Part shown: piece after piece, positions 9,559 through 13,853 of the stretch | Layout of the letters: each line of letters begins with the position of its first letter | Position numbering within the stretch: position 1 is the first letter of the stretch | Source of the DNA: a bacterium | Lineage (GTDB): Bacteria; UBP15; UBA6099 | Direction: 5' to 3' | NCBI GenBank assembly: GCA_029564595.1 | Contig: JAKQPS010000147.1 | Span: 1-28,370, forward strand | DNA length: 28,370 nt | The notes under the pieces: generated by a model | Database searches by the model: none | Told to the model about the DNA's origin: nothing | What the model saw: only the letters and a program-made list of their open reading frames with translations | Position numbers and translations under genes: made by a program

Positions 9559-9580
9559 ATTTTAATGTGAGGCGCGGATG

Positions 9581-9618: not shown

Positions 9619-10710
9619 ATGAAAGCGATTATTGCTCTAGAGGACGGAACGGCCTTCCACGGCGAGGGCTTCGGAGCGCGGGGCGAAAGCTTCGGAGAGG
9701 CCGTTTTCAACACCAGCATGACCGGCTATCAGGAGGTGCTCACCGACCCTTCCTACAGAGGCCAGATCGTGGCTATGACGTATCCGCTTATCGGCAATTA
9801 CGGGATAAACGAGGAAGACCACGAGTCGTCCCGGATATGGATGAGCGGTTTCGTGGTGAAGGAATACAGCAAGATAGTCAGCAACTGGCGCGCCACCTGC
9901 TCGCTGGGAGATTTCCTGATAAAACAAAATGTGGTGGGCATTGAGGGGATCGACACGCGGGCGCTTACGAAACATATCAGAGACGCCGGAGCGATGACTG
10001 CCGTCATATCTACCGAAGACCTCAACGTGAAGAGCCTTGTGAAAAAAGCGAGGACGGCCCCGAACATCGTGGGGCGCGATTTGGTGCGCGAAGTGGTTCC
10101 CGAAGGCCCTTACAAGTGGTCGAAAAAAGGCAAATATAAAATAGCGGCGCTCGATTGCGGCATAAAGAGGAACATTTTGCGGCTGCTGGAATCCCACGGC
10201 TGCGCTGTGACAGTCTTTCCCGCCGGGACCGAGCCTGAAGTGATACTCGCTTCCAAACCTGACGGATTTTTCCTGTCGAACGGCCCCGGAGACCCCAACC
10301 TGCCCTATCTTGTGAACACAGCGAAAGAGATGCTCTCGCGGGAGTTGCCGCTGTTCGGAATCTGCCTCGGCCACCAGATTCTGGGGCTGGCCCTCGGCGG
10401 CAGCGCGTTCAAACTCAAGTTCGGCCACAGGGGGGCAAACCATCCGGTGAAGAACCTCCTGACCGGCTCGGTGGAGATAACGGTTCAGAACCACGGCTTC
10501 TGCATCGACCCGGCCTCGCTCGACCCGAAAAAAATTGAAATCACTCACATAAACTTGAACGATGGAACGCTTGAAGGGTTCAGACACAAAAAACTTCCCG
10601 CGTTCTCTGTGCAATATCACCCCGAAGCCGCCGCCGGGCCTCGCGACTCGGAATATTTGTTCGGGGAATTTATCAAACTTCTGGAAAAGAACGTTGCCGA
10701 AAAGAACTGA
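9619..10710 (+). CDS. carA: Carbamoyl-phosphate synthase small (glutaminase) subunit
   Basis: Hydrolyses glutamine and channels ammonia to the large subunit for carbamoyl phosphate, the precursor of pyrimidines and arginine. The 363-residue protein has the CarA-specific N-terminal domain ([14 protein letters not shown]...[10 protein letters not shown]) and a class I glutamine amidotransferase domain with nucleophile Cys249 in GICLGHQ and the His/Glu pair in VQYHPEA. I chose ATG 9619 because the protein then opens as CarA proteins usually do; a GTG at 9580 lies upstream of the -10 box and cannot be used if that promoter is real. There is no SD, in keeping with a leaderless mRNA. It overlaps the half-length carB by 17 nt, so the two are translationally coupled. 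Confidence 0.96.
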
Positions 10711-12358
10711 CATAAAATCGATACTGGTGATCGGGTCCGGGCCGATAGTTATCGGGCAGGCGTGCGAGTTCGACTACTCCGGAACGCAGGCGTGCAGGGT
10801 GCTGAAGGCGGAAGGATTCCGCGTCGTGCTAATCAACACGAACCCCGCAACGATAATGACGGACCCGATGATGGCGGACGCCACTTATATTGAACCGATA
10901 ACTCCTGAAGTGATAGAGAAGATAATCGAGAGGGAGAGGCCGGACGCGCTGTTGCCGACTCTGGGCGGGCAGACGGCGCTCAACGCGGCGGTCGCGGTGG
11001 CCGAAAGAGGCTCTCTCGACAGGTTCGGAGTCGAGGTCATCGGAGCGAAAATCGACGCGATAAAAAAAGCCGAAGACCGTGACCTGTTCAAGAAGGCGAT
11101 GAAAAAAATCGGCCTCGACCTGCCCCGCTCTTCCCAAGTAGGCAGCCTCAAGGAAGCGATGGCCGCGATCAATCGCGTCGGGTTCCCGGCGATAATCCGC
11201 CCATGCTTCACAATGGGCGGAGTGGGCGGCGGCGTCGCTTACAACATGGACGAATTCAAGGCGCAGGTTCAGGCCGGGCTTGCCGCCAGCATGACTCATG
11301 AAGTCCTCATCGAGGAGTCTCTGCTCGGCTGGAAAGAATACGAACTGGAAGTGATGCGCGACTGCAAGGACAACGCGGTCATAATCTGCTCGATAGAAAA
11401 TTTCGACCCGATGGGGGTTCACACCGGGGACAGCATAACGGTGGCTCCGACGCAGACTCTCACCGACAGGGAATACCAGAAGATGAGGGACGCGGCGATA
11501 GCGTGTCTGAGGGAAATCGGCGTGGACACGGGAGGCTCGAACGTTCAGTTCGCGCTCAATCCTGCGAACGGCAGGATGATCATAATCGAGATGAACCCGC
11601 GCGTGTCGCGCAGCTCGGCGCTGGCCTCTAAAGCCACCGGGTTCCCGATAGCGAAGATAGCCGCGAAACTGGCGGTCGGGTACACCCTCGACGAGATAGC
11701 CAACGACATAACGAAAAAGACGCCGGCGTGTTTTGAGCCGACCATAGACTACTGCGTGGTTAAGATTCCGAGGTTCACGTTCGAGAAGTTTTCGGGCGCG
11801 TCGCAAATTCTCACCACACAGATGAAATCGGTCGGCGAAGCGATGTCGATAGGCAGAACCTTCAAGGAAGCCCTGCAAAAGGGATTGCGCTCGATGGAAA
11901 CCGGGCTGCGCGGGCTGGACGACCTGAAAACCGAGCCGTCGGACGAGCAGATTGAGGAAAAGCTCCGAATGCCCGGCCCGGACAGGATGCTTTATGTGAA
12001 GCATGCGCTAAAAAAAGGGATGAGTCTGGAAAATATTCACAAATTGAGTTGGATTGACCCTTGGTTTCTTTATAATATGCGGGAGATTGTCGATTTTGAG
12101 GCGGAAATCGAATCAATCGCGAACAAGGGCGTCGCCGCTCTGACGAAAGAAACGCTGACAAGAGCGAAACAGTTTGGATTCTCGGACGCGCAGCTCGGAC
12201 GGATTTTCGGCGTGGACGAAATCCAGATGCGGAAGATTAGAATAAAAAAGAATGTGCTGCCGACGTACAAGCTTGTGGACACATGCGGCGCGGAGTTCGA
12301 AGCGATGACCCCTTATTTCTATTCGACCTACGAGGTAGAAGATGAAAGCAGGGTTTGA
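10694..12358 (+). CDS. carB: Carbamoyl-phosphate synthase large subunit, N-terminal half only
   Basis: Full CarB is about 1070 residues: two homologous ATP-grasp halves plus an allosteric domain. This gene encodes only the first half, 554 residues from TTG 10694 (reading [17 protein letters not shown], the canonical CarB start). It covers the carboxyphosphate ATP-grasp domain ([32 protein letters not shown]) and the oligomerisation domain, then stops at [14 protein letters not shown], the point where the E. coli protein passes into its second half. Nothing of the carbamoyl-phosphate half or the MGS domain follows; purF begins inside the last codons. Split carB genes (carB1/carB2) are known in Aquifex and Methanocaldococcus, so a carB2 elsewhere is the simplest reading. 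A true deletion, or a homodimer of this half doing both phosphorylations, are alternatives. ATP-grasp residues look intact, so it is probably functional. Confidence 0.93.
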
Positions 12359-13853
12359 GCAAGACAAAATGAAGGACGCCTGCGGCGTCTTCGCGATACA
12401 CGCTCCAGACAAAGACGTTGCCAGACTGGCATATTTCGCGCTTTTCTCTCTTCAACACAGGGGACAGGAGAGCGCGGGCATAGCCGTTTACAGCGACAAA
12501 GAAATCGTCTGTTACAAGAACATGGGCCTAGTTACCCTCGTGTTCGATGAAAAAATACTCAGGCTTCTCAAAGGGAGAATGGCGGTGGGCCATGTGCGGT
12601 ATTCCACCACCGGCTCCAGCAACGAAGTGAACGCCCAGCCGATTCTTGCCGGCTCGGATACGATAAGACATTCAAAAAGTTGCGGCGCTAAATACCGCCG
12701 TCAGGTGGCGGTCGCCCACAACGGCAATTTGGTGAACACGGCGACCCTCCGCGAAGAGCTTCAGGAACAGGGCGTCGAATTCGAGACATCCTCGGACACC
12801 GAAGTGATAGCGGAGATGATAGCGATGTCGGACAAGCCGACCGCAGAAGAAGCGGTCGCCGATTCGCTCAGGCAAGCGCGCGGGGCGTTCAGCATCGTCG
12901 CGCTCTGCGAAGGGAAGATATTCGCCGCCCGCGACTCTTTCGGCATCCGGCCGCTATGCCTCGGAAAGCTCGGAGACGGCAACTGGGCGGTGGCGTCAGA
13001 GACCTGCGCGTTCAGCATAATCGGAGCGCAGTTTGAAAGAGAAATCAGACCCGGCGAATTGGTCATCATAGACGATTCAGGAGTCAAATCCGTCGATTAC
13101 ACGAAGCCTCAACGAGAGGCTCTCTGCATATTCGAGTTCATTTATTTCGCGAGGCCGGACAGCGTGATGCTCGGCCAGACTCTCTACACGGTGAGAAGGA
13201 ACTTGGGGGCGATACTCGCCGCCGAGTCACAAGTGGAAGCGGATGTAGTTATAAGCGTGCCTGACTCCGGGACGCCCGCGGCGATCGGTTTCGCTCAAGC
13301 GTCCGGCATTCCTTTTGTGGACGGGCTGATAAAAAACCGTTACGTGGGCCGGACTTTCATCCAGCCGAATCAGGAGATGCGCGAACTTGGCGTCAAAATG
13401 AAACTGAACCCGCTTTCGGACAACATCAGGGGAAAGCGGGTCGTTATGGTGGACGATTCAATCGTCCGCGGGAGCACCAGCAGCAAGATCGTCAGCCTGC
13501 TGAGGGCCAACGGGGCGACGGAAGTGCATGTGAGGGTCAGTTCGCCGCCAGTTAAATTCCCCTGTTTTTACGGAATCGACACCGCTTCGCGGGAGGAGCT
13601 TGTGGCCTCTCAGTTGAGCGTGGAACAGATAAAGGAAATGCTGGGGGCTGACAGCCTCAGCTATATCAGCGAGGAGGGGATGTTCAAGGCGACGAGCATG
13701 GACAGACATAATTTCTGCTCGGCCTGCTTTACCGAGGAATATCCCATCCCGATTCCCCAGCAGCTTCATCTGGAAAAGTTGATGTACGAAAACGGGAAAA
13801 AACAAGAGAACCGGGTTCCCACCTGCCTGCGCGAGAATAATCCCCGCTCCTGA
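12342..13853 (+). CDS. purF: Amidophosphoribosyltransferase, [4Fe-4S] type
   Basis: Catalyses the first step of purine synthesis: PRPP plus glutamine to phosphoribosylamine. The 503-residue protein starts at ATG 12342 behind GAGGTAGAAG, overlapping the half-carB gene by 17 nt. A 13-residue propeptide precedes the Ntn nucleophile Cys14 (DA/CGVFAI), so it should be self-processed as in Bacillus PurF. Cysteines 262, 408, 459 and 462 match the four ligands of the Bacillus-type Fe-S cluster ([20 protein letters not shown]). The PRPP loop is [13 protein letters not shown] (about residues 367-379). One oddity: the segment at about residues 104-121, between NAQP and AHNGN, is around a dozen residues longer than usual and basic. 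It closes the carA-carB-purF unit, a grouping of two glutamine amidotransferases that feed nucleotide synthesis. Confidence 0.96.

Follow-up and report, generated by a model that had tools for sequence, protein, structure and literature searches.

Carbamoyl phosphate is the precursor needed for arginine and pyrimidines, and carbamate, an unstable intermediate on the way to it, is tunneled in Escherichia coli. The locus considered here lies in a 28,370-nucleotide stretch of DNA (contig JAKQPS010000147.1 of assembly GCA_029564595.1, hereafter the window), which is the whole of contig C133 in a 4.4-Mb, 97%-complete metagenome-assembled genome (MAG; G000) of candidate phylum UBP15. A glutaminase subunit gene, carA1, is followed there by a gene for only the N-terminal half (N-half) of CarB, the large subunit of carbamoyl-phosphate synthetase (CPSase), and this raises the question of how such a half, termed CarB-N, could serve its host. 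The answer favored here, with a probability of about 0.6, is a split CPSase that arose as two carAB operons decayed in complementary ways, in which the C-terminal half (C-half) of a second large subunit, CarB2, acts in trans. The split architecture of the genes is well supported, and the biochemistry is what we infer from it.

The half-length CarB of the window

The genes concerned are the following.

9619..10710, + strand: carA1, glutaminase subunit with Cys269, His353, and Glu355 intact (E. coli numbering)
10694..12358, + strand: carB-N, stand-alone N-terminal (carboxyphosphate and oligomerization) half of CarB, without a C-half
12342..13853, + strand: purF (amidophosphoribosyltransferase), overlapping carB-N by 17 nt

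A preliminary description of this sequence had proposed a half-length CarB that ends between domains, overlaps purF by 17 nt, and has no second half in the window. The reading frame, the Pfam domains, and alignment to the E. coli protein bear this out, and a C-half search found no second CarB half on C133. The carB-N frame is open from 10562 to 12358, where its stop ends, and TTG 10694 is the start that matches E. coli CarB (MPKRTDIKS...), overlapping the carA1 stop by 17 nt. The carA1 frame is open from a GTG at 9580, with ATG 9619 as the start assigned by homology. The 554-amino-acid product of carB-N has 62% identity to E. coli CarB 1–553, matches Pfam CPSase_L_D1, D2, and D3 and nothing else (the pre-ATP-grasp, ATP-grasp, and oligomerization domains), and terminates in ...YEVEDESRV, the linker that precedes the C-half. 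By these domains and its N-half catalytic residues it qualifies as the N-terminal (CPS.A) half of the large subunit; against TIGR01369, which describes the complete subunit, it scored 874 bits where more than 1027 are required, covering positions 1–548 of the 1052 in the profile. A chance short open reading frame was ruled out by the profile match (E = 2e-279). A frameshifted or read-through C-half downstream was likewise ruled out, given that C133 has no C-half and that purF begins within the last codons of carB-N. ATG 12342 is supported as the purF start by a same-genus genome (G002), in which three codons differ between this ATG and the next in-frame one (12366), each without changing the amino acid read in the purF frame.

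Conservation within UBP15

Candidate phylum UBP15 comprises seven genomes, all of which, like every genome analyzed here, are MAGs. Five (G000–G004) form one family, four of these (G000–G003) share a genus, and G006 and G005 represent two further families of the order; the named relatives of the genus are ADurb.Bin236, UBA6099 (labelled UBP15), and USCA_metabat.19. Six independently assembled genomes (G000–G004 and G006) share a half-length CarB that ends at the identical boundary between domains, and the carB-N/purF junction is identical in the four same-genus genomes; it is therefore not an assembly error, as had been argued earlier from the clean boundary, which was also taken to speak against a deletion. 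purF lies 3' of carB-N throughout G000–G004 and not in G006, and G005 carries an ordinary carA and a full carB. The half-length CarB is conserved and is no remnant.

Other CarA and CarB genes in the genome

When the E. coli CarB C-half was used as query against G000, two C-halves were found and no others in this 97%-complete genome: those of CarB2, on contig C68, and of CarB3, on contig C108. CarA searches likewise gave two hits, that of the window (CarA1) and one immediately upstream of CarB2 (CarA2). The expectation that a carB2 would be found elsewhere holds insofar as a C-half lies on C68, but this is not a plain half gene, being fused to a dead N-half beside a CarA that lacks its catalytic triad; the same search yielded no stand-alone C-half gene of ~500 residues in G000. 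The preliminary description had also held that a separate full-length carB would refute its reading. CarB3 is literally such a gene, but the half is conserved all the same and is no remnant.

L005 8138-11338 (contig C108), - strand: CarB3, full-length CarB with both halves intact, without its own CarA

By the NCBI cut-offs CarB2 counts as an ordinary large subunit of CPSase, which makes it a trap for annotation; CarA2 scores below both NCBIfam cut-offs. The C-terminus of CarB2 (L004 378-480, - strand) is a lysine/alanine-rich tail, ...HKAPAKKIAAKKTMAKKSKK, that none of the other CarBs compared possesses. The neighbors of CarB3 are the vitamin and cofactor genes coaX, nadC, nadA, panC, and panB. 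Its class is also present in G003, G004, G006, G030, and G041, and in the last two, from other phyla, the gene likewise has no CarA of its own on the same contig. Since CarB3 lacks a CarA, it would use ammonia or borrow CarA1, and it is possibly an ammonia-using CPSase. The genome contains two carbamoyltransferase-family genes, whose products could consume the carbamoyl phosphate.

Complementary loss of catalytic residues

A part was called dead when it had lost residues with an established essential role in E. coli CPSase. CarA1 retains the Cys269-His353-Glu355 triad of an active class-I glutaminase. CarB-N retains all the N-half catalytic residues examined (R129, R169, E215, H243, N283, Q285, E299, N301, R303, and R306), together with I18, A23, and M378 at carbamate-tunnel positions. 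Position 207 is Glu, where E. coli has Asp, and Glu is also found in 23 of 24 CarBs from other lineages.

The pair on C68 has lost these functions. The triad of CarA2 is changed in G000–G003 (C269G, H353E, E355D), and the N-half of CarB2 carries Q285R, E299Y, and N301V, changes at metal-site residues that are invariant in all 24 CarBs of other lineages. Its nucleotide loop is altered as well, and its ammonia gate reads A/I/A. In G004 the changes are partly different and the same parts are broken (CarA2: C269G/H353D/E355K; CarB2 N-half: R129W, Q285R, E299S, R303T). The C-half of CarB2 retained all residues examined in four of the five genomes (G000–G004). Cys269 and His353 are essential in E. 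coli CPSase (PMC6245113), and the residues C232, A251, and A314, all kept by CarB-N, gate ammonia (PMC4655335). Glutaminase and N-half are live in the window pair, which has no C-half, and the C-half is the only live part of the C68 pair, so that the two pairs would, judged by their residues, sum to one complete enzyme.

Kinship of the halves

Identity to E. coli CarB 1–400 was 68–71% for CarB-N and 54–55% for CarB3, and identity to residues 554–935 was 63–66% for the CarB2 C-half and 57–58% for CarB3; the canonical bacterial CarBs surveyed fall at about 66–73% and 57–69% in the two regions. CarB-N and the CarB2 C-half resemble the two parts of a single canonical CarB, and as classified by identity and phylogeny the latter is the only canonical-class C-half in the genome. 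In the N-half tree, the CarB-N sequences form a clade (100/98) outside CarB3, which forms its own (100/100), and the dead N-half of CarB2, whose branch is very long, joins the outgroup. The C-half sequences form a clade (100/99) in the C-half tree, and constraining them together with CarB3 was rejected (approximately unbiased test, p-AU 0.036). In both half clades G006 falls outside G004 and G004 outside the genus; because matching topologies are expected from vertical descent alone, they show co-inheritance only.

Selection on live and inactivated parts

Ratios of nonsynonymous to synonymous substitution (dN/dS) were calculated pairwise by NG86 among the same-genus genomes. Values were 0.03–0.05 for CarB-N, 0.03–0.06 for CarA1, and 0.005–0.03 for the live CarB2 C-half, compared with 0.09–0.12 for the inactivated CarB2 N-half and 0.09–0.17 for the inactivated CarA2. 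Constraint on the inactivated parts is relaxed about threefold or more, yet is far from neutral; they are therefore pseudo-subunits and not pseudogenes, and this pattern of selection suggests that both retain a function.

Related arrangements in other genomes

G006 (family f3) encodes the C-half as a normal gene of its own, not fused to an N-half, and has no CarA2. A lysine-rich stretch similar to the tail of CarB2 opens this protein at its N-terminal end.

Two genomes of another phylum, G044 and G060, encode carA and carB-N, the latter with frames of 571 and 609 amino acids, and their half is the sister of the UBP15 halves, a weakly supported placement (93/88). Each has one full CarB, whose N-half is of the CarB3 type (77% identity to CarB3). 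The C-half of this protein is 64% identical to CarB3 and 68–71% identical to CarB2 and canonical CarBs, and keeping it with CarB3 gave p-AU 0.14–0.20. These values are suggestive of a chimera, or domain swap, of two CarB classes; if so, G044 and G060 would provide a second case of a canonical C-half fused to a different N-half. In both, the gene directly upstream of the full CarB encodes a glutamate dehydrogenase (G060, L097 3893-8647; G044, L087 15-4592), which suggests an ammonia-fed CPSase in these genomes.

Several further genomes carry altered or divided CarBs. The second carA-carB pair of G046 (L092 3504-8019, - strand) combines a CarA whose triad is lost (C269S, H353Y) with a CarB in which every residue examined is in place in both halves, and whose allosteric domain is the closest to that of CarB2 outside the family (58%); the pair possibly shows the UBP15 decay at a less advanced point. 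A third CarB in G041 (L089 2874-6122) retains most N-half sites and has lost metal-site residues of the C-half (E841G, N843T, R675H, R848Q), the mirror image of CarB2. The carB of G010 is split into an N-half frame of 554 amino acids and a C-half frame of 555 on different contigs (C49/C53), and that of G059 lies in two pieces (C1/C32), with one TGA in the match to the N-terminal piece.

A proposed split enzyme and its alternatives

In the split enzyme proposed here, CarA1 would hydrolyze glutamine to ammonia, from which CarB-N would form carbamate with ATP and bicarbonate; the carbamate would pass in trans to the CarB2 C-half, which also bears the allosteric (MGS) domain and would phosphorylate it to carbamoyl phosphate. 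One of two carAB operons would have lost its C-half, and the other its glutaminase and N-half chemistry, with the affected domains kept as scaffold or regulatory parts. The dead N-half of CarB2 may hold the oligomer together, or may compete with CarB-N and thereby regulate it. An AlphaFold2 prediction of CarB2 (three near-identical rows) reached a pLDDT (predicted local distance difference test) of 34, and the model was not used. The small subunit of E. coli CPSase touches the carboxyphosphate and oligomerization domains (PMC6245113), which are exactly the parts present in CarB-N. A stronger form of the proposal, which we advance tentatively and at somewhat less than even odds, is an obligate two-operon CPSase, in which CarA1-CarB-N and CarA2-CarB2 would make up one mixed holoenzyme; the sole live C-half would then be surrounded by two inactive pseudo-subunits, CarA2 and the CarB2 N-half, with a structural or regulatory role. 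Such a holoenzyme would be an intermediate on the way from two complete carAB operons to the simple split of the sister family.

Several observations weigh against the split enzyme. The trans complex is deduced from sequence, CarB-N and CarB2 lie on different contigs and share no operon, and the dead N-half tethered in CarB2 could occupy the interface that CarB-N needs. CarB2 of a single MAG, G001, carries E841K at the C-half metal site, and the 67%-complete G002 has no CarB3. G044 and G060 have neither a free C-half nor a CarB2 with a dead N-half, and a half CarB can therefore exist with a full CarB alone.

The gene set of these two genomes lends some weight to the alternative that CarA1 and CarB-N serve CarB3, for instance as an additional glutamine-fed module, with CarB3 as the main CPSase and CarB2 in another role, as does the fact that CarB3 is full length, intact in both halves, and without its own CarA. 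CarB3 is nevertheless of another class than CarB-N (54% against about 70% identity to E. coli, and a separate clade), and the C-half of the full CarB in G044 and G060 is nearer the canonical class, so that CarB-N may have a canonical-class C-half there too; this partnership is considered unlikely. If anything less probable is a minimal CPSase of CarA1 and CarB-N, in which a homodimeric half performs both ATP-dependent steps and CarB2 is an unrelated relic or an ammonia-dependent enzyme in its own right. Isolated halves of other CPSases can carry out each of the two partial reactions, and a dimeric CPS with a single domain is known (reviewed in PMC6022934); the half also occurs in G044 and G060 without a free C-half. 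Every UBP15 genome with the half nonetheless keeps a canonical-class C-half elsewhere, in G006 as a dedicated gene without an N-half, the CarB2 C-half is more constrained than its dead N-half, and CarB-N has retained the residues at carbamate-tunnel positions. The presence of three CarB-like genes, two with a part lost, might suggest redundancy and drift, with CarB3 as the source of carbamoyl phosphate and both the C68 pair and the half in decay, a very improbable account that is largely refuted by dN/dS far below 1 for all parts, inactivated ones included, by frames open in all genomes, by maintenance of the half across two families of the order, and by catalytic residues of the retained halves that are complete except for E841K in G001.

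Comparison with known systems

Split CPSases are known, and to our knowledge the route by which a fused two-half enzyme separates is not. Among living relatives, stages of such a route can be read in the complementary losses of two gene pairs (the window genus and its family) and in the simple three-part enzyme of G006. They present, at the level of domains, a duplication followed by complementary decay, in which parts of the enzyme that are inactive stay under selection, and the trans complex, if it exists, would provide a test of carbamate transfer between separate polypeptides. Literature searches, made largely among papers available without subscription, returned no report of such a two-pair arrangement.

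The closest likeness is to Aquifex aeolicus, in which the glutaminase and the CarB N- and C-halves are separate polypeptides divided at the inter-domain linker (Ahuja et al. 2001, cited in PMC6022934); separately made GLN, CPS.A, and CPS.B assemble into an active complex (PMC6022934). G006 matches this three-part system gene for gene. In the window genome, CPS.A and CPS.B are also on separate polypeptides (CarB-N in the window, the C-half on C68), but in G000–G004 the C-half is not free-standing, being fused to an inactivated N-half; in the window genus it also follows an inactivated CarA, so that what one gene pair has lost the other retains. The CarAB of E. coli resembles CarB-N and the CarB2 C-half in sequence and conserved catalytic residues; here, in contrast, one enzyme would be spread over two paralogous gene pairs, with the full-length CarB3 in addition. 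Vertebrate CPS1 also keeps a glutaminase-type domain after loss of the catalytic Cys (Ser294 in CPS1; PMC4655335). In the genome studied here, by contrast, inactivation extends to the bicarbonate-phosphorylating domain, and the glutaminase that has lost its triad, CarA2, is a subunit of its own. The 41-kDa dimeric CPS of Methanobrevibacter smithii, as Popa et al. (2012) are cited in PMC6022934, indicates that one CPS half can suffice for activity; the window genome differs in that it keeps, elsewhere, a live C-half of the same class as CarB-N.
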